The notes under the pieces: model-generated
Seen by the model: the letters and a program-made list of their open reading frames with translations, nothing else
Told to the model about the DNA's origin: nothing
Database searches by the model: none
Made by a program: the position numbers and the translations under genes
IMG/VR virus record: IMGVR_UViG_3300029319_000004
Location: 103,027 to 167,026 of that record
DNA length: 64,000 nucleotides
Source of the DNA: a virus
Direction: 5' to 3' (one strand)
Part shown: positions 26,318 through 56,822 of the stretch, piece after piece
Layout of the letters: each line of letters opens with the position of its first letter
How positions within the stretch are numbered: the first letter of the stretch is position 1

Positions 26318-29137
26318 ATGAGCAAAGACACATCTCAGTCAGCAGCGACTGACAAAAGCATAACCTCAGAAGAGCAGGCTCAAATAGATGCGCAAGGAGC
26401 TGTATCATCTCCACAGTCTGAGCAAGCTGATTTGCAAAAGCGCAAAGATCAGCTTAAACAAACACAAGCTGCAAAGCAAAAAAAAGCAGCTAGAAGAAAC
26501 GCAGAAAGAAATCTTAGAAACATTCAGCAGTGCTTATTGTGTGAAAACATAGATACAATTTCAAACTATCATAGACAAAATTCTGATAAGTTTGCATATC
26601 AAGTTATTAGGCAAATGTATGGCTCTAGTGAGAGGATTGTTAATGAGCTAAAAAGCTTGCCTCCCCTTGATGGCTTCTTTTGTGTTAGAACATCTATTTT
26701 ATCTCTGCTGCAGCCGGATATAAGAATTTTTAAAGTTACTCATGAAGTGGCTGCTCCAACACCAGATGGTGTCGCTAGAGAGCCCAAGACAAACCCCACA
26801 AGACCAACATACAGAGAAATAATTTTTTCTAGTGTTTTTGGGACTGAAAACGCAACTAGCACTCAGCAATATTTAAACTCTGAAGCCTCAGAGCCAAACT
26901 GGAGAAATGTTGGACTTCAAAGCTTTACCTTTAATCAGTTTGGTAAATCACATGGAGCAATGGAGCAGAACATTCAGTGTCAATTAAGGCTTTATGTTAA
27001 AAGCCTAAAAGATTTAGTTGCGATATCTCCCGGCTCTCAGGCCAGGTATGTTGACTTGATGCTTTGGCCAGAGGCAAAAATTAACAGAGATACACAACAA
27101 TATAATCCCAAACATTACGAAATAAAAGTTGTCATGGGCTACAAAAGACCACCTAAGCAAGCTCTAGAAGGACTTAAACCAACAAGAGAAGAAAGAGAGT
27201 TTTTAAAGAATATACATCTTTTTAATTACGTTGTTTCTTTGACTCTTTACAAGTATGATTTTAGCATTAAAGAAACTGGCGAGGTTGACGTTACAATAGA
27301 TTATTTTGGAAGAGTCGATTCTGTCTTTAATAGCTCCGCGGCATCTCCATTAAAGGGCGGGATAGTTGTTGCAAAAAATGGAGGAAAGCTGGAGCTAAAG
27401 CCTGAAATGAAAGGAAGCCAGGATTTTATGACATTTTCAAAAATAAAAAGTCAATTAGGAAACTTGGTAGTTTCTAAACAAAATCCTGATTTAGCCACTG
27501 GTGATTTAATTGATCAAGTAGCAGAATTATTAAAAAATCCACTCTTTAGGCACATGTATAAAGATGCTTATGATATTATAATTACAAAAGAGTTTGAACC
27601 TGCGGATGTTCAAACTGCTTTAGATAACTTAACTTCTAAAGAAGGTGCTAGTTTGATGGCGGCTGTGCTTCGAAGACAGTCCATGAGCATAAAAGGAGAG
27701 GCATTTCAACTTTTTATGAAACAACTTCTTGATGGCAATACTATTAGTAAAGATGTCGGCGATAGAATGTTTGCGATTAGTGTCAACAAGGAAAATATGG
27801 ATACGGCACTTGGTATTATAAATGCACCCACCAAAGGAGCAGACAAGGCAAAGAAAGAAGAAATAAAAACTAATACTTCAAATGCAATCGGATTAGCTGC
27901 AAAAAGCGTCAGGGTTGGAAAAGTCAAAGATTTGTCATCTGTTTTGAACTCGCTTCAGAAAACCGAGGAACAAGCCGGCGATCTAGCTTCAAATGTAGAA
28001 TCAGAATCTTCATCTAAGGACGCTGCGTCTATAGACACAATTAAAGGCGCCGCGGCACAATCAATTGTCACCAGCAAGTCAACAGGAGACTCATATGAAT
28101 TTTATTTCATATATCTTGGAGACATTATAGAATTAGCAGCAAAAAATGCTGGCATGTTCGCTTTTCTAAAAGAAGAAAAGCCTCCGTTTAACCCTGATTC
28201 CTACATGACTCAGGAAGTTGATAAAGACTACACGCTGACTAATATGAGGCTTTTGCTTGGGCCTTTAGAATACCAAGATGCATCTGGAAAAATTCGCAGC
28301 ATTAATTTGGCTGAATTTCCAATATCATATGATTTATTTCGTAACTGGTTTTTAACCAAAATAGTCAGGGAGGATAACTCTAAGATATCTCTTGGCAGCT
28401 TTTTAAATAAATTAATAAATCAGTTGGTACTTCCATCTTTGGGGGCGGACTGCTTACGTCCTATAAAATTAAGAAACACAAGGTTTCAAAACATATATGT
28501 GACAATTCCTGGAACTCCTGTCGGGTCTGCTGAGCAGCTTCAGGGCGCTTTTGATACTGCGGAACTTTTACCAATGGAAAGGAAAATAGACGTATCCTCA
28601 GGCAGATTTGCAGCTGCGTTTAGCAAGCCTGCAAGACAGAAAAGAGAGGCAGGAGTTGAGGCCATAGTAAAAAATAGTTATGACTATAAACTAATCCAAG
28701 TAAATTCTATTAAAAGCATTGTCTCTAGAAAAGCAGATTGTAAGGAAGACTTAAAAGATGGAATATATCATTTTAATATTGGTTCCGACAGGGGCATTTT
28801 GAAAGAAATGATATTTTCGAAAACTGACCTGCCTGGCTTAGCAGAGCTAAGATCAGCTCAAGCGATAGAAGCTGGAGGCGACCAGCTAAAACAATTAGCA
28901 TTTCCGTTCAACTGTAATTTAAAACTAGTTGGAAACACACTATTTATACCAGGTATGATATTCTATGCTAATCCTAGCTTTTTGGGGCTAGGCAACCCTC
29001 AAGACAAAAATTCTATTGCTTATCAATTAAATTTAGGGGGCTACTTTTTGGTCTTAACAACAAAAACAACAATTTCCCCAGGCCTCTTTGAAACTGAGGT
29101 GGAAGGCGTTACTATCGGACACGGGAAGGTAACATGA
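26318..29137 (+). CDS. Large baseplate/hub structural protein
   Basis: 939 residues. The N-terminal 70 residues are a charged Gln/Lys/Ala coiled coil. Then come mixed domains including LRLYVKSLKDLVAISPG and a second half with MTQEVDKDYTLTNMRLLLGPLEY. The final 60 residues (FIPGMIFYANPSF, GYFLVLTTKTTISPGLFETEVEG) resemble the closing part of hub proteins in which a tube-like beta domain ends with G-[YF]-x-V and F-x-T-x-V. I infer a central baseplate component, with no exact T4 counterpart. Confidence 0.55.
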   Translation: MSKDTSQSAATDKSITSEEQAQIDAQGAVSSPQSEQADLQKRKDQLKQTQAAKQKKAARRNAERNLRNIQQCLLCENIDTISNYHRQNSDKFAYQVIRQMYGSSERIVNELKSLPPLDGFFCVRTSILSLLQPDIRIFKVTHEVAAPTPDGVAREPKTNPTRPTYREIIFSSVFGTENATSTQQYLNSEASEPNWRNVGLQSFTFNQFGKSHGAMEQNIQCQLRLYVKSLKDLVAISPGSQARYVDLMLWPEAKINRDTQQYNPKHYEIKVVMGYKRPPKQALEGLKPTREEREFLKNIHLFNYVVSLTLYKYDFSIKETGEVDVTIDYFGRVDSVFNSSAASPLKGGIVVAKNGGKLELKPEMKGSQDFMTFSKIKSQLGNLVVSKQNPDLATGDLIDQVAELLKNPLFRHMYKDAYDIIITKEFEPADVQTALDNLTSKEGASLMAAVLRRQSMSIKGEAFQLFMKQLLDGNTISKDVGDRMFAISVNKENMDTALGIINAPTKGADKAKKEEIKTNTSNAIGLAAKSVRVGKVKDLSSVLNSLQKTEEQAGDLASNVESESSSKDAASIDTIKGAAAQSIVTSKSTGDSYEFYFIYLGDIIELAAKNAGMFAFLKEEKPPFNPDSYMTQEVDKDYTLTNMRLLLGPLEYQDASGKIRSINLAEFPISYDLFRNWFLTKIVREDNSKISLGSFLNKLINQLVLPSLGADCLRPIKLRNTRFQNIYVTIPGTPVGSAEQLQGAFDTAELLPMERKIDVSSGRFAAAFSKPARQKREAGVEAIVKNSYDYKLIQVNSIKSIVSRKADCKEDLKDGIYHFNIGSDRGILKEMIFSKTDLPGLAELRSAQAIEAGGDQLKQLAFPFNCNLKLVGNTLFIPGMIFYANPSFLGLGNPQDKNSIAYQLNLGGYFLVLTTKTTISPGLFETEVEGVTIGHGKVT

Positions 29138-29138
29138 T

Positions 29139-30608
29139 ATGTCAACCTCTGCATTAGAAATATTCTCTGCTAGAAATAATATAAATGATAATTATAAAGA
29201 ATTTGCAGATATCAAATATTTTGATCTTCATAGGAAGCACTTTTTATATGGTCGGATCGATCGCGATGGAGATGCAGTTGAATTATTAGATACAAACCTA
29301 GCTCAAATCGAGGGTGGTGCAAGAACCGAATTTGCAGTTGATTTTGTTAAAGATGCGTATGATTTTTTGAGAAATGAAATTTCAAGGCTAACAAAAGGAA
29401 GTTACATAGAGCCGAACAGTGTTTATAATCCAAACTCATTTCAGGTCTATAAAGCCTGGCGCTCAGGAGATTTAGAATACAGCTATTATCGCTACTTAAA
29501 CAATCTATACACAGACTTTGTACAAAACTTTTTAGAGCGGGAGCGTCGTTTTGAATATATCTTAAACTTTGATACTTTTATGCAGCAATTCTTTAAGTAT
29601 ATTAGTACGATTGCATATCGATTTCCTATTACGAAAACTGGATACATACTGTCAAACCATTGTTCTCCTTTTGTTAGCGGGTTAATGATTGAAATAGCCA
29701 AAGAACAGCATGGAATCGTAAATGACAAGCGTATTTTGGACTTTACAGAAGACCCAAATTATACATTGATAAAGAGAGCTACTAAGCGTGTTGGGTTTAT
29801 GGTGGATAGAAATGCGCCTTGGAGGTTTGTTTTTAATTTAGCTTCTGGTGGTACAACTAAAGGTGGTAAGTTTAATACCGACATGATTAAAACTTACGAT
29901 GGTAAAAAAATAAGTCAAAAATTAGTGGGCACTGGTGGCGCGTTCTTTATGAGTAAGTATGGAGTTACTTTCTTAAAGCAAAGAAAGGACGCTCCAGTGG
30001 GAGAGTCACATCCGCTGGCCGGCACTTCGTTTAGCACCCACGTCTTTGATCAGTATTATAGAAAAACACATTTACATGAGATAGAAAACATTAGAAATTA
30101 TATGTTTTTATTTTATTCTTCATTCTTTAATCAGTTTACTACGTTTAGCAAGCTTGAAGAATATCAATGTCAGACTTCACTAGAGTTTAACACAAAATTA
30201 GCAATAAAATATATTAATAGAAGGGAGTTGCCTGGACAAGATCCTAGATTTGCAGGAACAAACGTTTTGATCCCAGATGTTTTTAATAAAACATATAAAG
30301 ATGATTTTTGGCTGAGTTTTATTTTGAGGTTTAGGCTTTTGGAGACAAAACAAAATTTATCGGAAGCAAGACTGCAGAGAATAGAGCGAGATATGATGGG
30401 AATATATAGGGCTATAGGAAGAACAGCTGCTTTAAATTACATTAATAACTTGACAAAAGGCTTTCACGATCTTAAGTTTGTACATGAAGGAGATTACCAT
30501 CAAGGGCAACCACGATCTGAATACGAATCAAGAAAAAGAAAGTCTCTCATGGAAATATATGAGAGCACAGACACTGAACTAGTTGCGACTTTGAATGAAA
30601 TAAAATAA
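29139..30608 (+). CDS. Virion/baseplate protein of unknown type
   Basis: 489 residues, rich in Tyr, Phe, Arg and Asn, with mixed alpha/beta character and no signal peptide or membrane span. It starts 1 base after the previous stop and ends 3 bases before the polymerase gene, closing the tail run. The aromatic composition and the position suggest a baseplate or tail-periphery protein. I recognise no family. Confidence 0.5.
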   Translation: MSTSALEIFSARNNINDNYKEFADIKYFDLHRKHFLYGRIDRDGDAVELLDTNLAQIEGGARTEFAVDFVKDAYDFLRNEISRLTKGSYIEPNSVYNPNSFQVYKAWRSGDLEYSYYRYLNNLYTDFVQNFLERERRFEYILNFDTFMQQFFKYISTIAYRFPITKTGYILSNHCSPFVSGLMIEIAKEQHGIVNDKRILDFTEDPNYTLIKRATKRVGFMVDRNAPWRFVFNLASGGTTKGGKFNTDMIKTYDGKKISQKLVGTGGAFFMSKYGVTFLKQRKDAPVGESHPLAGTSFSTHVFDQYYRKTHLHEIENIRNYMFLFYSSFFNQFTTFSKLEEYQCQTSLEFNTKLAIKYINRRELPGQDPRFAGTNVLIPDVFNKTYKDDFWLSFILRFRLLETKQNLSEARLQRIERDMMGIYRAIGRTAALNYINNLTKGFHDLKFVHEGDYHQGQPRSEYESRKRKSLMEIYESTDTELVATLNEIK

Positions 30609-30611
30609 TCT

Positions 30612-31784
30612 ATGCTTTTTCAAACGCTTGATAACAAAAGGGAGTGTTATGCAGTCTACTCCGATGGAGAGCTTTATCACTACCCTAATAATTTACACAT
30701 GACGGAAACTTGGGATTGGACATGTCACGCTCCGCCTAATGTTGACTTTGCACAAGTGTGGTGTAACGGAAAAAGTCTAAGTGAGGTATGCCCGGAAGAA
30801 CTTAAAATTAGTTTACAGCATATCCAAAATAAAGCTCGGGCTTTTTTTAAATCATTTCAATCTTCAAAAATATCAATGGATGATGTGTGCTTTTATGATT
30901 TAGTTCCAAAAAATTTTTTGTTAGATTATTGCAATATTAAAAATGAAATATCTAAGCATGTTTTTTCTAGCTACCAAAAACCAAAAAACTATGACTTTTT
31001 AGTTGAGCTTGTAGAGATGCTTGATGATATATCTTGTCACACGTTGAACTTTGACCACACAAGACTATCATCATTATCAGCAGCCGAGCACAAAAAAGCA
31101 TTGGCGTGCAATAATTTAAAAAAAATATTTTATAATCCATGGGGTAGTGTTACGGGACGGCTAACCACGAGACCTAATAGCTTTCCAATACTAACACTGC
31201 CTCGTACTTTACGCTCAGGCCTGACTCCAAACAATGATCTTTTTGTTGAGCTAGATTACAATTCTGCAGAGATGAGAACAGCGTTTGCTCTTCTGGGGAT
31301 GCAGCAGCCGGAAAATGATATTCATGATCATCTTAAAAGCGAGGTCTTCAATGATAAGCTTAGTAGGGATGAGGTTAAACAGAAAGTTTTTGCTTGGCTT
31401 TATAATCCAAAAGCTAGCAATAAAAAATTGCAAAAGTTTTTAGAGAAAGAAAAGATTCTAGAAAAGTATTACACGTCTGGAATTGTTAAAACTCCATTTG
31501 ATCGCGACATACAAGTTGAGCCAGAAAAAGCATTGAATTATCTAGTTCAAAGCACCACTAGTGATTTGTTCCTAGCACAAGCTATCAAGATATATAATAT
31601 GCTTAAAGATAGCAACTCTCATATTGCTTTTTGCATCCATGACAGTTTAGTGCTAGATGTTGAAAGATCTGATAGGCAGTTGGTGTCAAAAATAATCTCT
31701 GTCTTCTCACAGACACCGTATGGTCATTTTAAAACAAACGTCTCTTTTGGTAAAGATTTTGGCACTATGAGGAAAATTAAATGA
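30612..31784 (+). CDS. Minimal family-A DNA polymerase
   Basis: 390 residues against about 600 for a Klenow-type enzyme. GRLTTRPNSFPILTLPR (182-198) matches the thumb/palm entry of family A; ELDYNSAEMR (213-222) is motif A with catalytic Asp215; R252-x3-K256 with Tyr264 fits the O-helix motif B; LVQSTTSDLFLAQA (311-324) matches the QGTAAD region; and CIHDSLVLDV (341-350) is motif C with Asp344, though the usual HDE reads HDS. No 3'-5' exonuclease motifs are visible in the first 170 residues. It may be a repair or accessory polymerase, since a full DnaE is present elsewhere. Overlaps the next gene by 4 bases. Confidence 0.75.
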   Translation: MLFQTLDNKRECYAVYSDGELYHYPNNLHMTETWDWTCHAPPNVDFAQVWCNGKSLSEVCPEELKISLQHIQNKARAFFKSFQSSKISMDDVCFYDLVPKNFLLDYCNIKNEISKHVFSSYQKPKNYDFLVELVEMLDDISCHTLNFDHTRLSSLSAAEHKKALACNNLKKIFYNPWGSVTGRLTTRPNSFPILTLPRTLRSGLTPNNDLFVELDYNSAEMRTAFALLGMQQPENDIHDHLKSEVFNDKLSRDEVKQKVFAWLYNPKASNKKLQKFLEKEKILEKYYTSGIVKTPFDRDIQVEPEKALNYLVQSTTSDLFLAQAIKIYNMLKDSNSHIAFCIHDSLVLDVERSDRQLVSKIISVFSQTPYGHFKTNVSFGKDFGTMRKIK

Positions 31785-32629
31785 ATGTGATAGGTTTAGG
31801 AGAGGCAGGCTGTAAAATATCTCATTATCTTAGCAAATATGATGATTATCAAACATTTCAGATCGATGTAGAAAATAAGCAATATGATAATTTTATAAAA
31901 ATTAAAAAATTAGATAGCCATGAAGATTATGAAGCAAAGTACAAGCCTTTAAAAATAAATGTTGCCAATGGGCTTGATACGTTTTTAATACTGTCGGGTG
32001 CTGGTGCAATATCTGGTGCTGTTCTGAGAATATTAGAGCAGCTAGACAATAACAATGTTAAAATTATTTATATAAAGCCTAGACTCTCAGAGCTTTCCAG
32101 CTTGCAAAAGACTCGCCATAGAATTGTAAGTCAAGTGCTGCAAGAATATTGTAGATCTGCAAAACTAAAAGAGTTTACAATTATCGATAATTCTCTGATT
32201 GAAGATTTATTGCCAGAGATACCGCTTGATGATTATTGGAGCCCAATCAATCAACTTATAGGTGATACATTCCACATGATTAACTTTTTTAATAAAAGCG
32301 AGCCTCTTTTGAAGAGTAGTAATGCTGTGCCTAAAACTGCAGTCATGTCGACTTACTCTTTAGTTGACTTTTCAAACATGCAGGAAAAAAAATTGTACGA
32401 TTTATCTTTCCCCAGAGCAAAAAGTTATTATTTTGCTCTAGGAAAGCAGTTTATTAAGGATAATAAAGACATTTTGACACAGGTACGACAATTTATATCT
32501 TTGAATGACAGTGAAAACTGTGATTGCTCTTATGAGATTCATCAGACTGATTACGATCAAAACTATGTGTATGGATATCACTATGCAAGTTTTATTCAGG
32601 AGCAAGATAAAAACTTGTTTACAAGTTAA
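31781..32629 (+). CDS. Divergent tubulin/FtsZ-like protein
   Basis: 282 residues. The N-terminus MNVIGLGEAGCKISHYL mimics the FtsZ/tubulin start (hydrophobic strand, G-x-G-x-x-G-x-x-I). TFLILSGAGAISGAVLRILEQL (68-88) occupies the place of the GGGTGSG nucleotide loop but lacks its Gly-Thr-Gly core. IIYIKP (95-100), IIDNS (134-138) and the N-x-x-I-x-D-T helix near 157-163 follow in FtsZ order. It has fewer C-terminal residues than FtsZ. A GTPase or filament role is inferred, and the altered loop could mean a different ligand. It lies between polymerase and SSB genes. Remote similarity only. Confidence 0.5.
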   Translation: MNVIGLGEAGCKISHYLSKYDDYQTFQIDVENKQYDNFIKIKKLDSHEDYEAKYKPLKINVANGLDTFLILSGAGAISGAVLRILEQLDNNNVKIIYIKPRLSELSSLQKTRHRIVSQVLQEYCRSAKLKEFTIIDNSLIEDLLPEIPLDDYWSPINQLIGDTFHMINFFNKSEPLLKSSNAVPKTAVMSTYSLVDFSNMQEKKLYDLSFPRAKSYYFALGKQFIKDNKDILTQVRQFISLNDSENCDCSYEIHQTDYDQNYVYGYHYASFIQEQDKNLFTS

Positions 32630-32661
32630 TAAAGAGTGTTTATTATATTAACTGCAGATAG

Positions 32662-32689
32662 TTGGAATATTTGCCAGCTATACTATACC
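32662..32689 (+). promoter_or_regulatory. Possible sigma70-like promoter of ssb gene
   Basis: TTGGAA (32662-32667), a 16-base spacer and TATACC (32684-32689) lie 20 bases before the SSB start in a 79-base gap. Both hexamers are imperfect, so this is tentative. Confidence 0.3.
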
Positions 32690-32708
32690 TTAAATAAAGG
32701 AGATAACA

Positions 32709-33449
32709 ATGGGTATTGATTTAACAAAAATGAAGGCAAAGCGCGATGCCTTAGAGAATCGCGACACCGGTAAGACCGTTTTTTGGCGACCGGAAGATGG
32801 TGAACAAACTATCAGGATTCTACCGCCCTCAGATGGAGACCCCTTTAAGGAGTATTGGTTCCATTACAACTTGGGCAAGAATGCTGGTTTTCTAAGTCCT
32901 AAGAAGAACTTTGGCGAAGATGATCCGTTGAACGATTTCATTCGTCAGCTCTTCAAGGATGGCTCTGAAGAGTCGGTCAAGATGGCTAAGAACCTCTCAG
33001 CGCGCCAGCGCTTCTTCTCTCCTGTGATTGTACGTGGAGAGGAAGAAAAAGGGCCGCGGCTGTGGGGTTTTGGCAAGATGGCCTACAAGGAGCTTCTGAA
33101 TCTCGTCCTCAACCCAGAGTATGGTGATATTACTGATGTGACTGAAGGCACTGACCTTGTTATTAATTATGGCAAGCCAGCAGGTGCACAGTTCCCTCAG
33201 ACTACTATCACCCCTCGTCGTCGTCCTTCTGTTCTCTCTGAGTCTGAGGACGAGATTCGTACTTGGCTAGACGGTATTCCAGATGCGGATGAGGTGTTCG
33301 AGCGTAAGACGCCTGAGCAGGTTCAATCGATGCTAGATGAATTCTTGCTCGGCGCCGGCGATGCGGAAGAGACCTCAACAGAGGCTACCCATTACGGTAA
33401 TTCCACTACGCAAGTTGACAAAGCTTTTGAGGAGCTTCTCGGAACCTAG
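32709..33449 (+). CDS. 32: Single-stranded DNA-binding protein, T4 gp32-like
   Basis: 246 residues (T4 gp32 is 301). It begins with a basic LAST-like segment (LTKMKAKRDALENRDTG) and has the conserved FWRPEDGEQTIRILP strand, a HYNLGKNAGFLSPKKNFG loop and an acidic C-terminal tail (DAEETSTEATHY..FEELLGT). The zinc-binding cysteines of T4 gp32 are absent; the chain has no Cys. It would coat replication intermediates and recruit UvsX and helicase loaders. AAAGGAG opens the gene; codon use is C-rich like the capsid gene, implying high expression. A terminator follows at once. Confidence 0.8.
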   Translation: MGIDLTKMKAKRDALENRDTGKTVFWRPEDGEQTIRILPPSDGDPFKEYWFHYNLGKNAGFLSPKKNFGEDDPLNDFIRQLFKDGSEESVKMAKNLSARQRFFSPVIVRGEEEKGPRLWGFGKMAYKELLNLVLNPEYGDITDVTEGTDLVINYGKPAGAQFPQTTITPRRRPSVLSESEDEIRTWLDGIPDADEVFERKTPEQVQSMLDEFLLGAGDAEETSTEATHYGNSTTQVDKAFEELLGT

Positions 33450-33515: not shown

Positions 33516-33833
33516 ATGGAAGTGTTGCTTCATGCGCTCGTAACCGCGTCGGTGTTTTTACTAGGTGTAGTAGCCGGTGCTCTAATAGAGAATGCAAGAA
33601 TGAAGTATCTAGATAGATTAAAATATCTTGAAAAAACAACACAAGAAATTCTTTTGCCTCTTGCAAACAAGATAAGTCATATAGATGCTAGACAAAATTT
33701 TAGGCCTCCAGTGAGAGAAACATGGGTTGATTATGAAAAACTAGACCCAGACGAAACACTGGAGTTGCCTAAAGAATATCTAGAACAGTTAAACTCAAGA
33801 GGTAAAAATGGCGAAGGCAAAGAAGTTAGGTAA
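33516..33833 (+). CDS. Membrane-anchored small protein upstream of uvsX
   Basis: 105 residues from ATG 33516. An in-frame GTG at 33480 lies within the ssb terminator stem, so I prefer the ATG, although no good ribosome site precedes it. One N-terminal transmembrane helix (about 5-23, VTASVFLLGVVAGALI) is followed by a helical, Arg/Lys-rich and then acidic cytosolic part. It overlaps uvsX by 26 bases. No family recognised. A membrane tether for replication proteins is possible from context only. Confidence 0.55.
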   Translation: MEVLLHALVTASVFLLGVVAGALIENARMKYLDRLKYLEKTTQEILLPLANKISHIDARQNFRPPVRETWVDYEKLDPDETLELPKEYLEQLNSRGKNGEGKEVR

Positions 33834-34923
33834 GCTAAATTTATCAGAGATGCGCAATCTGATTAATAAAAAAGCTGGTATGGATGTTGCGCACAATTTA
33901 ACACAAGATAATCCAACGGAAGTAAAAGACTGGATCCCAACAGGTTCTAGGTGGCTTGATAGTATTATCTGTCGAGGCAAGCCGGCAGGAATCCCTGTAG
34001 GAAAAGTTGTAGAAATCGCTGGACTTGAAGGATCGGGCAAGTCTTATATGGCTGCTCAAATTGCTGCCAATGCTCAGAACAAAGACATTGATGTTATTTA
34101 TTTTGACTCTGAGTCGGCTATTGATCCTACTTTCTTGAAAAATGCTGGTTGCGATCTTGAGCGGCTGCTCTATGTACAAGCTCAGAGTGTTGAGTTTGTT
34201 TTAGAAACAATCGAGGAACTTTTAGGCTCTAATGACAATAGAATGTTGTTTGTCTGGGATAGTCTAGCTCTGACTCCGGCGATCAGTGATGTTGATGGAG
34301 ACTTTAACCCTCAGTCATCAATGGCTATGAAGGCTAGAATTTTAGCTAAAGGTATGTCTAAATTGACTGTTCCGATTGCGAACTCACAATCAACTTTCTT
34401 AGTTCTTAACCAGCTTAAGACCAACATTCCTCAAGGCCCAGCTGCTCGAATTGAGGCTATGACCACTCCTTATATAACTCCCGGTGGTAAAGCTATGCAT
34501 TATGCATATTCTCTAAGAATTTGGCTTACTGGTAGGAAAGCAAAAGCTAGCTATATTCAGGATGATCATGGATTTAGAATTGGCTCTGAAGTAAAGGTTA
34601 AACTTAAAAAGAGTCGCTTTGGTACTGAAGGGCGAGAGTGCACTTTTAAAATTGTTTGGGCTGGCAGTGTTGGCATCCAAGACCAAGAATCTTGGCTTGA
34701 GGCTGTAAAGGGATCTAGTAATATCGTTCAGCGAGGCGCCTGGTATGAGCTAGTGTACGAAGATGGTACAACTGAAAAATTTCAAGCAGCCAAGTGGCTA
34801 GAGAAACTTCAAAGTGAGAAGTTTAAAGATAGGGTTCTTCAAATTATGGATGAAGAAATTATCATGCGCTTTGAGAAAAAAGAAGGCAATGCTGATGATT
34901 TCTACAATGTTGATCCCGAATAA
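33808..34923 (+). CDS. uvsX: RecA-like recombinase UvsX
   Basis: 371 residues. Walker A GLEGSGKS at 72-79, a DSESAIDP acidic patch near 104-111, Walker B-like MLFVWDSLAL near 146-155, and LNQLKTNIPQGP loop L2 region near 202-213. Size and motif order match UvsX of T4-like phages. It catalyses strand exchange and recombination-dependent replication with the SSB. The acidic C-terminus (KEGNADDFYNVDPE) is typical. The gene starts within the upstream frame after AAGAGG. Confidence 0.9.
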   Translation: MAKAKKLGKLNLSEMRNLINKKAGMDVAHNLTQDNPTEVKDWIPTGSRWLDSIICRGKPAGIPVGKVVEIAGLEGSGKSYMAAQIAANAQNKDIDVIYFDSESAIDPTFLKNAGCDLERLLYVQAQSVEFVLETIEELLGSNDNRMLFVWDSLALTPAISDVDGDFNPQSSMAMKARILAKGMSKLTVPIANSQSTFLVLNQLKTNIPQGPAARIEAMTTPYITPGGKAMHYAYSLRIWLTGRKAKASYIQDDHGFRIGSEVKVKLKKSRFGTEGRECTFKIVWAGSVGIQDQESWLEAVKGSSNIVQRGAWYELVYEDGTTEKFQAAKWLEKLQSEKFKDRVLQIMDEEIIMRFEKKEGNADDFYNVDPE

Positions 34924-45740: not shown

Positions 45741-48700
45741 ATGGAACGAACTAAATCATCTATCCCGTTTGTTGGTCTTCATGCGCACAGTGTCGCAGGA
45801 TCAGTATTCGATGGATTCGGCTATCCGCAAGATCATATGGATTTTGCTTATCAAAACGGCATGGGCGCGCTCGCCCTTACAGACCACGGCAACATGAATG
45901 GAATGTCATATCAGGTTCTTCACGCTAAGAAAATGAAGTCTGAGGGCAAATCGTTTAAGCCTATTTTTGGCGTAGAGGCCTATTTTGTGCCCTCAATCTC
46001 TGAATGGAAAGAAGAGTATGAAAAGGTTAAAGCCGACAAGAAACAAGCCAGAAAGATTATTAATGATACTGACAAGGTTGAGGCCGAGGACGAGAACGCT
46101 TCAAAAAGCAAGACAAAAAGCAAGATTAACTCATATGGTCACATTGTTCTTTTGGCTATGAATCAAACTGGGCTTAATAATATTTTTAAGATTGTCTCCG
46201 ACTCCCATCAGGGTGACAGCTTTTATAGAAAGCCTAGGCTAGACTATGACATGCTCAAGAAGCATGGCGAAGGCATCATTGCTTCTTCTGCCTGTCTTGG
46301 TGGTGTATATGCTAGAAATTATTGGGACAATCGAGATAATGGGGATGATGCTGTTCTTGAAGCTATGAGGAACACAACATCAAATATGATCGACTGTTTG
46401 GGCGATAGATGGTATGGCGAGCTTCAGTGGAACAATGTACCAGAACAGCATGAGCTTAACAAGTTTGTCATTAAAATGCATGAAGAATTTGGTATTGAGC
46501 TTGTTTCCACAGCGGACAGTCACTATCCAAATCCTGAGGCGTGGAAAGACAGAGAACTGTACAAGCGTCTAGGATGGCTAGGATCAAAGCTGCCAGAGTG
46601 GGCTAGCACTGAGCTTCCTGTTTCTGTCGAAGAGGTTGGCCATGAGCTTTACCCAAAGAACGGCGATCAAATGTGGGAGTCGTACAAACGCTACTCAAAG
46701 CAGTGCAACTTCAAATACGATGATGATCTTGTGCATGATTCGATTACTAAAACACACTGGATCGCCCACGAGAGAATCGAAGACTTTATGCCGGATGATA
46801 CTGTTCGTCTGCCTGGCTTCGTGGTACCAGATAATGTAGAGGCCTCAGAAGCTCTTATCAAAGAAGCAATCTCTGGTCTAAGAAAGATGTCTCTGCAAGA
46901 AAACAAGGCATACGTTGACCGACTCAAGGAAGAGTTGCTTGTTATCAATGAGCGTGGCTTTGCAAAATACTTCTTAACCATGAAGGCTGTATCAGACAAG
47001 GCTAATGAGCATATGCTGTCTGGCCCAGGCCGAGGATCCGCCGCCGGCTCGCTCGTTGCCTATGTGCTTGGGATTACTCAGGTCGACCCTATTAAGTATG
47101 GATTATTGTTTAGTCGGTTCTTGCGTGCAGACGCTACTGACTATCCCGACATTGACTACGACGTCAGTGACGCTTTTGGTCTCAAGGAGATCTTAGCTAA
47201 AGAGTGGGGAGAGACAACCGTTGTACCTATTTCCAACTTTAACACCTTGCAGCTTAGATCGCTAATCAAAGATATTAGCAAGCTTTATGATGTGCCCTTT
47301 ACGGAAGTAAATGCCGTCACCGGAAAGATGGTGCGCGAAGCTACGCCAAAAGCAAAAGCAGATCATGGCATTAAGGCTGGAGTGTATGCTCCAACATTTG
47401 AAGAGGTTATGAAATATTCAGAATCGCTAATCCGATTCCTTACAAAATATCCGCAGATCAAAACTCATGTTGAGGCGCTTGTTGGGCAAGTTAGGTCAAC
47501 TAGTCGTCATGCTGGCGGTGTTGTTATTGGCGAGAACCTAGATAGACATATGCCTCTTATTTGTTCAGGCGGCGTACTTCAGACTCCATGGTCCGAAGGC
47601 ATGAACGTGAGACATCTTGAGCCCTTAGGTTTTATTAAGTTTGACATCTTGGGCCTGTCAACACTAGAGATGATTCAGTCGGCTGTTGGTCATGTGCTTA
47701 AAAGGCATCACGGTATTGAAAACCCAAGCTTCGCAGACATTAAGAAATACTATGATGACAATCTGCATCCTGACTCGATCGATCTCAACGATCCGAAAGT
47801 TTATAAAAATATCTTTCACAAGGGTAAGTTTATGGGTGTATTTCAGTTTACAAACGCTGGCGCTCAGAGATTCTGTATGAGATCGAAGCCTAATAACATT
47901 ATTGATATTTCTGCGATTACATCGATCTACAGACCAGGGCCTCTTGGTGCCAACGTTGACAGGAAGTATGTCAAGGCAAAGAATGACCCAGAGTCAATCC
48001 AGTATGTAAATGATGTTATTGAGGAAGTGACTAAAGAAACAGCAGGCTTTTTGATCTTTCAAGAGCAGATTGCTTTGCTAGCTCACAAGTTGGGCCATGA
48101 CATTAGTTTGGATGAGGGCAATAAACTTAGAAAGCTTTTAACCAAGAAGGGGACTGGAAAAGGTGCTGAAGAGAAAGAAGTTATCAAGCAAAAATTTATT
48201 AGAGGCTGTGTTGCTAAGTCAATCGATCGATCAACCGCCTCGTCACTCTGGGACAATTTTGAGTATTTTTCTGGCTATGGCTTTAACAAGTCTCATGCTG
48301 TTGCTTATAGTATCCTTTCTTTCCAGTGTGCTTGGCTCTTGAACTATTTTCCGGAGTGCTGGGCAGCTGCTTTCCTTGATAAGGAGCCTGAATCTAGAAA
48401 AGAGGCAGCGATTAGTTTAGCTCAGAAGAATGGTTTCTATATTCAAAATGTGGATATCAATACTTCTACAAGTCAGTGGGAGATCTCTGATGACGGTGAG
48501 ACCCTGGTGCAGCCTTTGAGTTCTATCAAAGGACTAGGCGACAAAGCTATTGATCAGATTATCATGCATAGGCCATTCAGTACCGTAGAGGATCTTTTAT
48601 TCAGTAAAGAAATTGTTTATTCAAAGCTAAATAAAAAAGCTCTTGACGTTCTGTGTCGTTCAGGCGCACTAGATTCTTTATCCGATGAGCGCTTTACCGG

Positions 48701-49169
48701 ATGCAAACATCTTTGGATGTCTTGTGTGCAGGATAGACCTAAAAACCCTAAGAAGCTGGCAGAGAATATTAAGCTATATGCCCCAGAGGCTGACTTTTCT
48801 GTGGAGGAAAAGATTGATTATGTTTCTTCTCTTACTGGAATCTTCCCTTTTAATCTAGTCATGACGCGGGAGATTCGTGAATCTATCAACAGGCACTGTG
48901 TGCCAGCACTTGGTAATTGGGATGATGACTTAGGAGTGGCTTGGTTTGTTCCAAGAGAGATTATTCCTAAGAAAACTAAGAACGACAAGCTGTACTGGCT
49001 TTTGAAGGTGACAGATGAAACTTCGGCTAACATTACAATCAAGTGTTGGGGTATCAGGCCTGATGATCAAGTTCATCTCAACAGGCCGTATGCAGCCAAG
49101 CTAGATCATAGCAGTGAGTGGGGGTTCAGCACAAGATCAATTCGCCATAACTTTAAACTACTGGGATAA
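45741..49169 (+). CDS. dnaE: DNA polymerase III alpha subunit, DnaE type
   Basis: 1142 residues, like bacterial DnaE (about 1160). The PHP domain has HAHS (14-17) and TDHGN (47-51), with a Lys/Glu-rich insertion near 96-130. The catalytic core shows GPGRGSAAGS (428-437) and PDIDYD (469-474) with two of the three catalytic aspartates. FRPGPLGA-type, GYGFNKSHA and a late OB-like region (about 1080-1130) follow. It has no 3'-5' exonuclease domain, as usual for DnaE. It presumably replaces the family-B polymerase (gp43) of T4 as replicase. Confidence 0.93.
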   Translation: MERTKSSIPFVGLHAHSVAGSVFDGFGYPQDHMDFAYQNGMGALALTDHGNMNGMSYQVLHAKKMKSEGKSFKPIFGVEAYFVPSISEWKEEYEKVKADKKQARKIINDTDKVEAEDENASKSKTKSKINSYGHIVLLAMNQTGLNNIFKIVSDSHQGDSFYRKPRLDYDMLKKHGEGIIASSACLGGVYARNYWDNRDNGDDAVLEAMRNTTSNMIDCLGDRWYGELQWNNVPEQHELNKFVIKMHEEFGIELVSTADSHYPNPEAWKDRELYKRLGWLGSKLPEWASTELPVSVEEVGHELYPKNGDQMWESYKRYSKQCNFKYDDDLVHDSITKTHWIAHERIEDFMPDDTVRLPGFVVPDNVEASEALIKEAISGLRKMSLQENKAYVDRLKEELLVINERGFAKYFLTMKAVSDKANEHMLSGPGRGSAAGSLVAYVLGITQVDPIKYGLLFSRFLRADATDYPDIDYDVSDAFGLKEILAKEWGETTVVPISNFNTLQLRSLIKDISKLYDVPFTEVNAVTGKMVREATPKAKADHGIKAGVYAPTFEEVMKYSESLIRFLTKYPQIKTHVEALVGQVRSTSRHAGGVVIGENLDRHMPLICSGGVLQTPWSEGMNVRHLEPLGFIKFDILGLSTLEMIQSAVGHVLKRHHGIENPSFADIKKYYDDNLHPDSIDLNDPKVYKNIFHKGKFMGVFQFTNAGAQRFCMRSKPNNIIDISAITSIYRPGPLGANVDRKYVKAKNDPESIQYVNDVIEEVTKETAGFLIFQEQIALLAHKLGHDISLDEGNKLRKLLTKKGTGKGAEEKEVIKQKFIRGCVAKSIDRSTASSLWDNFEYFSGYGFNKSHAVAYSILSFQCAWLLNYFPECWAAAFLDKEPESRKEAAISLAQKNGFYIQNVDINTSTSQWEISDDGETLVQPLSSIKGLGDKAIDQIIMHRPFSTVEDLLFSKEIVYSKLNKKALDVLCRSGALDSLSDERFTGCKHLWMSCVQDRPKNPKKLAENIKLYAPEADFSVEEKIDYVSSLTGIFPFNLVMTREIRESINRHCVPALGNWDDDLGVAWFVPREIIPKKTKNDKLYWLLKVTDETSANITIKCWGIRPDDQVHLNRPYAAKLDHSSEWGFSTRSIRHNFKLLG

Positions 49170-55214: not shown

Positions 55215-55232
55215 TTCATGACGAGGTGTATT

Positions 55233-56822
55233 ATGAAAAAGCATTGTCTTTCTGAAGAGCAACTTCAGGAGAAACTATCAAGCGGCGTTAATAAGTTAGC
55301 AGATTGCGTCGCTGTTACATTAGGGCCTAGAGGTCGAAATGTTATGCTAAGAGCAGGCGGAAAGCCTGTAATTACGAAAGATGGCGTAACTGTTGCCAAG
55401 TTTTTTTCAACTGATGATTTATTTGAAGATGCCGCGGCAGAGGTCTTGAAAGAGGTTGCTGACAACACAAATAGTTCTGCTGGCGATGGTACAACAACAT
55501 CGACGGTGTTAGCTCGCGAGATTTTCAACGAAGCTCAAAAGTATATAAGAGCTGGTCATGACCCGCTTCAGATAAAGAAGGGCATGGAGAAATCACTTGA
55601 GTCAATTATATCTAGACTAAATAAAATATCACAGCCTGTTGAGAGTTTTGAAGAAATAAAAAACGTTGCAACCGTGTCTGCCAACAACGATGAAGCAATT
55701 GGAAATCTTATTGCCACTGCTGCCGATCAAGCTGGACATGAGGGTGTGGTGTCTGTTGTAGCTGGCCGCACTGAAGATACTAAATTAAATTTAGTCGAGG
55801 GATTTAAATTTGATGGTGGCTATGCTGCGCAGGCGTTTGTAACTAACAAAAGAAAGAACACGGTAGAATATTCAGAGGCTTTTATTTTAGTTACTGAAGA
55901 AAAGATTACTCAAGTAGCTCAAATATTACCAGTGCTGGAGCAAGTGGCAAGAGAGGACCGTCCTTTAATTATTGTTGCAGAGTCAGTAGAGGAACAAGCG
56001 CTAGCTGCTTTGATTATGAATACAGTTAGAGGCTCAATGAGGGTTGCCGCAGTAAAGGCGCCTGGATTTGGCCGGGAAAGAAAGGAGATTCTTTCTGACT
56101 TGGCCATGGCTGTCGGTGCTACTTTTGTTACACGAGGGTCGTCACCAAAGCTTGAAGATTTAAAACTAAAGCACCTTGGCAAGGCTAAGACAATTGAGGT
56201 TCAAAAGAACAGTACCACAATTGTTGATGGGAATGGAGACTGGGAGCTAATTGAAGAAAGAATTGAGTCGATTAAATCTGAGATAAAGCAAACGGAAGAC
56301 ATGAGAGAGTGCAAAAGACTCCAGCACAGAATATCAAGACTTCAAAGTGGCGTTGCTATAATAGAAGTAGGAGCCGCTAGTGAGGTCGAGATGGTGGAGA
56401 AAAAGCACCGCATAGAAGACGCCCTGGAGGCCGTGCGCGCCGCGCAAAGCTCTGGGATTGTGCCAGGGGGTGGCGCTGCTCTTGTGAGTTGCATTAGTTT
56501 CTTGCCAAAGAATTTAAACAACTCGGAGTCATTCGGGCGTGAAGTTTTAAAAAAAGCTATGCTGGCTCCAATCACTCAAATATCAAAAAACTGTGGTGTT
56601 AGTCCAGACCTTGTGATTGATTCTGTGATGAGGCAGAACAAAAGGAAGAAATCCAGCAACTATGGATATAATTTTGTTACTAATAAAGTGGTTGATATGT
56701 TTGAAGAGGGCATCATAGACCCAGCAAAGGTAACAATCACTGCTCTAAAAAATGCAGTGTCCGTTGTGTCGACTCTTCTCACAACCGCCACGTGCATTAT
56801 TCAGGAGCAAAATGAAAGCTAA
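55233..56822 (+). CDS. groEL: Chaperonin GroEL
   Basis: 529 residues from ATG 55233, which has GAGGTG 4 bases upstream; ATG 55218 would precede the predicted transcript start. VTLGPRGRNV (28-37), TKDGVTVAK (48-56), GDGTTT (84-89, Asp85 for ATP) and the GIVPGGGAAL equatorial motif are intact. The Gly-Gly-Met tail of bacterial GroEL is missing; the chain ends IIQEQNES. Apical residues are divergent. It should form a folding ring for phage proteins, probably with the phage GroES-like protein. Phage GroEL is known but rare. Confidence 0.93.
   Translation: MKKHCLSEEQLQEKLSSGVNKLADCVAVTLGPRGRNVMLRAGGKPVITKDGVTVAKFFSTDDLFEDAAAEVLKEVADNTNSSAGDGTTTSTVLAREIFNEAQKYIRAGHDPLQIKKGMEKSLESIISRLNKISQPVESFEEIKNVATVSANNDEAIGNLIATAADQAGHEGVVSVVAGRTEDTKLNLVEGFKFDGGYAAQAFVTNKRKNTVEYSEAFILVTEEKITQVAQILPVLEQVAREDRPLIIVAESVEEQALAALIMNTVRGSMRVAAVKAPGFGRERKEILSDLAMAVGATFVTRGSSPKLEDLKLKHLGKAKTIEVQKNSTTIVDGNGDWELIEERIESIKSEIKQTEDMRECKRLQHRISRLQSGVAIIEVGAASEVEMVEKKHRIEDALEAVRAAQSSGIVPGGGAALVSCISFLPKNLNNSESFGREVLKKAMLAPITQISKNCGVSPDLVIDSVMRQNKRKKSSNYGYNFVTNKVVDMFEEGIIDPAKVTITALKNAVSVVSTLLTTATCIIQEQNES

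Follow-up and report, generated by a model that had tools for sequence, protein, structure and literature searches.

A highly diverged FtsZ/tubulin-fold protein, predicted to be a pseudo-GTPase, encoded beside a short DNA polymerase in mostly uncultured phages

Introduction

Does a phage gene that lies between a DNA polymerase gene and a single-stranded DNA-binding protein (SSB) gene encode a member of the FtsZ/tubulin superfamily, and what could such a protein do with an altered nucleotide loop? Tubulin-superfamily proteins are known as GTP-driven filaments. In tubulin GTP splitting, the T7 acid of one subunit enters the nucleotide pocket of the next, and TubZ/PhuZ of phage phiKZ acts via this canonical interface and requires its C-terminal extension or tail for polymerisation (PMC3678025). 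The gene considered here is located in a 64,000-nucleotide stretch (the window) of a 180,711-base virus record in IMG/VR. A preliminary description, made from the sequence alone, had identified a divergent tubulin/FtsZ relative at 31781-32629 and had suggested either a new filament or a non-polymerising regulator of host FtsZ. We analysed the predicted fold, the family profile, the conserved loops and the gene neighbourhood of this protein.

Results

An open reading frame conserved across at least 593 relatives

The gene occupies positions 31781-32629 on the plus strand and is an ATG-started open frame of 282 codons, the start of which overlaps the stop codon of the upstream polA gene by 4 nt (ATGA). 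All of the motifs named in the preliminary description (G-x-G-x-x-G, IIDN and N-x-x-I-x-D-T) were present in the 282-aa product, as GLGEAG at residues 5-10, IIDN at residues 134-137 and NQLIGDT at residues 157-163; residues 68-80 read FLILSGAGAISGA. Stepwise searches of IMG/VR yielded 3 loci initially, followed by 6, 17, 173 and finally at least 593 relatives, and the 194 distinct full-length proteins from the loci had a median length of 281 aa. In close pairs, the dN/dS of the gene had a median of 0.29 and a maximum of 0.52. The gene is under purifying selection, and the open frame is not due to chance, given the number of relatives and these dN/dS values.

Predicted fold and superfamily placement

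The structure predicted by AlphaFold2 (AF2) from a 64-member alignment had a mean pLDDT of 94.5 and a pTM of 0.92. In the model and its Foldseek alignments, an N-terminal nucleotide-binding domain, a central helix H7 and a C-terminal domain were present in tubulin order. Foldseek against the PDB returned 605 matches at E <= 0.001, and the 50 shown were FtsZ or TubZ throughout. The best match was Staphylococcus aureus FtsZ (5mn5_B, E 6e-13, TM 0.69 by either length), aligned over about 300 columns and both domains, and the second-best target was the TubZ structure 4ei7 (E 1.7e-12). Among predicted viral proteins (BFVD), the top match was A0A6J5RW92 of an uncultured Caudovirales phage, annotated "FtsZ Cell division GTPase" (E 9e-12, TM 0.73 by query length), and the next ones included several annotated as tubulin-like. 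The structural check, which had been named beforehand, thus gave a high-confidence fold matching FtsZ and TubZ across both domains.

Profile-profile comparison gave a score of 40 against eight PhuZ proteins (P 1e-4, HHsearch probability 56%) and 27 against nine FtsZ proteins (P 0.01), both in register, versus at most 21 (P 0.086 or worse) for seven unrelated neighbouring phage families. Alignments were needed for this comparison, as nothing could be learned from hhalign runs with FtsZ or PhuZ sequences taken singly. Taken alone, the profile similarity to PhuZ and FtsZ is moderate evidence for superfamily placement. PhuZ and FtsZ scored 56 against each other, so the present family is farther from both than they are from one another.

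Sequence searches of Pfam, PHROGs and the PDB detected no tubulin and yielded only sub-threshold Rossmann-type or chance matches; the family is therefore missed by standard annotation. The Pfam Tubulin model PF00091, which recognises the PhuZ and FtsZ control proteins, matched nothing in the window genome and nothing in the seven related contigs, while 13 of 14 control genomes were positive, and a second, canonical tubulin was sought in the phages carrying the gene and was not found. Because the fold and profile tests succeed, these single-sequence negatives are interpreted as a lack of sensitivity for the superfamily link. As predictions, the fold and the homology to FtsZ/tubulin are solid. 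The data suggest that the protein most probably represents a new, highly diverged, catalytically degenerate family of the superfamily that is not PhuZ, TubZ or FtsZ. The claim that a replication cluster encodes a divergent relative of tubulin/FtsZ whose nucleotide loop is altered was therefore upheld by fold, profile and context.

Loops kept, altered and missing

The N-terminal part of the model comprises a strand (residues 2-6), the T1 loop, a helix (7-17), a strand (66-71) and the T4 loop, followed by a helix (78-87), a strand (92-99), a helix (107-125), a strand (131-136) and the central helix (153-171). The C-terminal part contains strands at residues 189-196, 211-221, 248-256 and 262-269 and a helix at 231-241. 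This order follows that of FtsZ, and the naming of the elements after FtsZ is our own reading.

The loops were compared across 195 family members. The GxGxxG of the T1 loop (residues 5-12) is kept, with G5 and G10 each present in 192/195 and G7 in all 195. Conservation was also seen at N137 (178/195), at position 153 as Y, F or W (159/195), at N157 (180/195), at H165 (187/195), and at Q121 and R125 (195/195 each). In a weak profile alignment (P 0.01), N137, W153 and N157 fell on N165, F182 and N186 of E. coli FtsZ with the same 4-residue spacing. N165, F182 and N186 are the likely guanine contacts of FtsZ. Since T1 and these likely base contacts are conserved, guanine-nucleotide binding may persist; this is a possibility inferred from conservation, without binding data.

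The T4 loop (residues 72-80) of the window protein reads GAGAISG, and the claim that this replaces the Gly-Thr-Gly core held for the window. For the family the claim was refined, in that a GG[ST]G-type core remains, as GGSGA, in 13/195 members, so the loop is degenerate and not uniformly replaced. The core was present in all 17 controls (9 FtsZ and 8 PhuZ), and the further claim that known phage tubulins keep it thus held for the PhuZ controls (8/8). The alteration of the phosphate loop is characteristic of the family and not peculiar to one phage.

The T7 catalytic acids (NxDxxD, or DxxD in PhuZ) were found in 0/195 members, and no conserved acid was detected among these members in residues 168-191; the D..D pair was present in 9/9 FtsZ and 8/8 PhuZ controls. 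In the AF2 model, only 17 residues without a helix connect the central helix to the next strand, by which helix H8 is apparently absent; nothing of the T7/H8 region is left between residues 171 and 189. The C-terminal tail is reduced to a median of 5 residues, and no Pfam match to the TubZ_C_2 C-terminal domain was found in the protein.

The replication cluster and its two polymerases

The order of genes in the window is polA (390 aa), the FtsZ-like gene, SSB, a small gene, UvsX, a gene that we take from its sequence to be a dCMP deaminase, another small gene, a 5'-3' exonuclease, a DnaB-like helicase and ribonucleotide reductase (RNR). The SSB is gp32-like (32709-33449, plus strand; Pfam gp32 E 2e-10, phrog_1192 E 7e-26), and the recombinase is UvsX/RecA-like (33808-34923, plus strand; phrog_97 E 7e-56). 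RNR, dCMP deaminase and thymidylate synthase represent nucleotide metabolism in the cluster. In a neighbourhood survey of 254 loci, polA lay upstream of the FtsZ-like gene in every informative locus (222/222); downstream, SSB was found in 206/211 and UvsX in 168/174. The gap between polA and the FtsZ-like gene was mostly -13 to +5 nt. By dN/dS, the FtsZ-like gene (0.29) evolves faster than the other three linked genes that were tested, polA (0.16), SSB (0.10) and UvsX (0.06).

The claimed position between polymerase and SSB genes thus held, with a refinement as to which polymerase is meant. The polA product (PolA390; 30612-31784, plus strand) is a family A DNA polymerase (Pfam DNA_pol_A E 7e-14) of 390 aa, a length that leaves no room for an exonuclease domain. 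Its model has a Klenow-type fold (AF2 pLDDT 93.6; Foldseek PolA E 5e-13), its motif C reads HDS where the usual PolA has HDE, and at least 583 relatives were found in IMG/VR. A DnaE-type DNA polymerase III alpha of 1142 aa is encoded at 45741-49169 on the plus strand (phrog_405 E 4e-226; Pfam DNA_pol3_alpha E 1.5e-50, plus PHP), and this enzyme, not PolA390, is likely to be the main replicase of the phage.

Several other genes were observed around the locus. Small genes lie between polA and the FtsZ-like gene in some loci, one of which encodes a protein of about 103 aa that begins (N)KLVRDxIPxII (L074:1197-1505, L080:2639-2947, L082:5693-6001, L096:5676-5987, L098:2064-2363); its possible resemblance to a MazG-type nucleotide pyrophosphohydrolase is inferred from sequence alone. 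In three loci (L128:1466-3388, L131:5201-7126 and L143:5204-7129), the same interval contains an inserted gene whose product of about 640 aa begins like a lipoprotein and has many cysteines. A small conserved protein of about 85 aa with the motifs RTMNFV, LP..FL and ELVWDL...FRVFNW is encoded between the FtsZ-like gene and SSB in a number of loci (L064:6837-7088, L099:6834-7115, L142:6330-6575 and others). Just 5' of polA, open frames of 489 and 939 aa (29139-30608 and 26318-29137 of the window) occur in the same order in most loci and had no informative match in Pfam or PHROGs. The window also encodes a GroEL-like chaperonin at 55218-56822 (phrog_5725, E 1e-144).

A conserved hairpin in the SSB leader

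A conserved RNA hairpin was identified by covariation in the SSB leader (32653-32711, plus strand; E 1.3e-8 for the window copy), ending at the SSB start codon. It consists of an 8-bp stem and a loop of about GAGAGUUA/GAAGAUUA, followed by ACUWUA, directly 5' of the SSB ribosome-binding site. Pairing of the loop with bases 3' of the hairpin, as a pseudoknot, is conceivable. In the stem, 99.2% of cells were paired and 107 were compensatory; the stem beat all slid versions, and 0/500 shuffles reached it. The hairpin has the same position in L065, L017, L012, L123 and many other loci, and in each of eight genomes with the FtsZ-like gene a single copy scored best (E 2e-11 to 0.004); it lay on the same strand as that gene, some 30 to 320 bases 3' of it. 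No match was obtained in Rfam at curated thresholds; only weak ones occurred in the window, and no credible family emerged.

In many loci, the gap between the FtsZ-like gene and SSB contains a sigma-70-like promoter together with the hairpin. As SSB is preceded there by a promoter-like site and a leader of its own, polA and the FtsZ-like gene form a tighter unit, which the hairpin delimits. Gene 32 of T4 is under autogenous control (PMC535899), and by analogy the hairpin could be a site of SSB self-repression, a possibility that is inferred only.

Distribution of the gene

The FtsZ-like gene is present in single copy in the window genome, and likewise in seven other contigs (103-204 kb). A search made through the polymerase led to 80 loci, 77 of them newly fetched; the gene was found in 76 of these, and one was too short to tell. 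This 76/76 retention covers only the polymerase relatives nearest to that of the window and may fail for distant ones. A scan of a bacterial and archaeal genome collection yielded zero relatives, and no host copy or prophage of the gene is therefore known. Tblastn against 50,697 phage records gave no match, and hence no relative from a cultured phage.

Flavobacterium phage immuto, Microcystis phage Mel-JY01 and a 484-kb uncultured phage share the replication cluster with the phages considered here, and a profile search did not find the FtsZ-like gene in them. The gene was thus either gained in this lineage or lost in that of the relatives. A split version of the protein, encoded by the two small genes gp002 and gp003 in the polA-SSB interval of immuto, was considered and rejected, as gp002 matches no open frame of the loci and the family profile finds nothing across the whole immuto genome. 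The open frame preceding SSB in Mel-JY01, considered as another counterpart, is unrelated and has an S-AdoMet lyase-like domain. Taken over the phages surveyed, the FtsZ-like gene is likely to belong to the core genes of a large phage group, most of it uncultured.

Discussion

We propose that the protein is a pseudo-GTPase from the FtsZ/tubulin superfamily that works as the dedicated partner of the exonuclease-less PolA390. The function is inferred without biochemical evidence, and we consider this proposal as apt to be wrong as right. The protein may bind guanine nucleotide yet would not hydrolyse it by the tubulin mechanism, and it would form no canonical protofilaments, because for either activity the T7 face of the adjoining subunit must enter the nucleotide pocket; a polymer of a non-canonical kind remains possible and is not excluded. 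It would probably be a nucleotide-sensing or scaffolding subunit beside PolA390 that recruits the polymerase to, or regulates it at, intermediates of phage replication, recombination or repair. The partnership is inferred from the strict linkage, the overlapping reading frames and the complete retention. Several points stand against it: linkage is no proof of physical partnership, small genes intervene between the two genes in some loci, related phages replicate without the FtsZ-like gene, and its dN/dS of 0.29, above that of its neighbours, is unusual for a core subunit of a replisome and would suit a host-facing protein. A bolder reading, toward which we are slightly more sceptical than accepting, is that the tubulin fold was recruited as a non-polymerising, nucleotide-sensing subunit of the phage polymerase/SSB/recombinase machinery and is encoded by a core gene of the large, mostly uncultured phage group concerned. 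To our knowledge, no FtsZ/tubulin relative is known as a non-polymerising subunit of such machinery.

The earlier suggestion of a regulator of host FtsZ corresponds to an antagonist whose surviving nucleotide-side face docks on the T7 face of host FtsZ, caps its filaments and blocks division during infection. The loss of just one of the two polymer faces is cap-like, the gene evolves faster than its linked neighbours, and phage proteins that inhibit FtsZ are known, e.g., lambda Kil (PMC3961180). Against this stand the fixed position in the replication cluster and the complete retention, host-takeover genes being usually variable, and the conserved residues of the probable base pocket, which a pure cap would not need. 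The identity to bacterial FtsZ is also only 10-15% (Foldseek), a distance too great for a recent FtsZ mimic. We have no data on host FtsZ regulation and regard the antagonist as unlikely; the strict polA/SSB linkage and the retention lead us to prefer a replication role. The non-polymerising nature suggested with it fits the anatomy, by inference. The other suggestion, a new filament, would make the protein a cytomotive filament like PhuZ or TubZ that positions replicating phage DNA through a non-canonical interface. The shared superfamily, the phage context, PhuZ as best profile match and the PhuZ-like GGSGA loop kept in 13 members speak for it; it is disfavoured by the joint absence of the T7 catalytic acids, helix H8 and the C-terminal tail, and no conserved partner gene of the TubR DNA-binding type was recognised among the labelled neighbours. 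We consider it improbable.

It is also conceivable that the protein acts elsewhere, in nucleotide metabolism or signalling, at membranes or in the virion, and that its linkage to polA reflects gene order only. The nucleotide-metabolism genes of the cluster and the MazG-like genes adjoining the FtsZ-like gene in some loci are consistent with such a role, whereas an NTPase would not be expected to have lost its phosphate loop and catalytic acids, and polA and SSB are the nearest fixed neighbours; this reading, too, appears unlikely. Finally, the protein could be a Rossmann-type dehydrogenase or some other nucleotide enzyme that is unrelated to FtsZ and merely resembles it, and the sole weak Pfam matches are indeed to NAD-binding domains (E 0.017-0.2). 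However, E. coli FtsZ itself gives a similar weak NAD-binding match, and the structural similarity extends over both domains (TM 0.69) with only FtsZ and TubZ among the 50 listed matches, by which this explanation is practically ruled out.

Among known systems, PhuZ of the phiKZ-like jumbo phages (Pfam Tubulin and TubZ_C_2) is the nearest by profile; both are phage-encoded proteins of the tubulin/FtsZ fold, with the glycine-rich T1 loop and the aspartate after the second strand in register. PhuZ has the T4 core, the T7 acids and a long, acidic C-terminal tail, whereas the present family has a degenerate T4 loop, lacks the T7 acids, H8 and tail, and is set in a replication cluster. The likeness to FtsZ lies in the two-domain fold, the order of secondary elements, the T1 loop and, as far as the weak profile alignment can show, the likely guanine contacts; at about 11% identity, the protein has no GGGTGTG, NxDxxD, H8, H9 or C-terminal peptide. 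TubZ, the partition tubulin of plasmids and phages, is a GTP-driven filament whose C-terminal tail is needed for filament dynamics (PMC5322520), and, judged from the anatomy, neither feature is expected in this family. The best viral structural match, A0A6J5RW92, differs in its length of 452 aa and in being recognisable as FtsZ by annotation.

Divergent FtsZ families have been described previously as FtsZl1 and FtsZl2, and some archaeal FtsZ paralogs are without motifs important for function (Makarova and Koonin 2010, PMC2875224). A search for the GGGTG(S/T)G loop revealed one of the two families, and the same loop is part of the other (PMC2875224); a family without it would therefore escape that survey. 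The contexts of FtsZl1 and FtsZl2 are those of membrane remodelling, not of phage replication. In the literature searched, coverage of which was partial, no phage FtsZ-fold family of this kind was described.

Surveys made by the GGGTG(S/T)G motif or by the Pfam model thus miss part of the superfamily. If our reading is correct, the protein would be a rare natural pseudo-tubulin in which the fold and a probable base pocket are kept and the catalytic/filament face is lost, and it would show what the tubulin fold can do without polymerising. With it, the replication cluster of a large phage group, almost all of it uncultured, gains a likely core component. The adjacency of its gene to polA suggests that the tubulin fold may have been reused for phage DNA replication.
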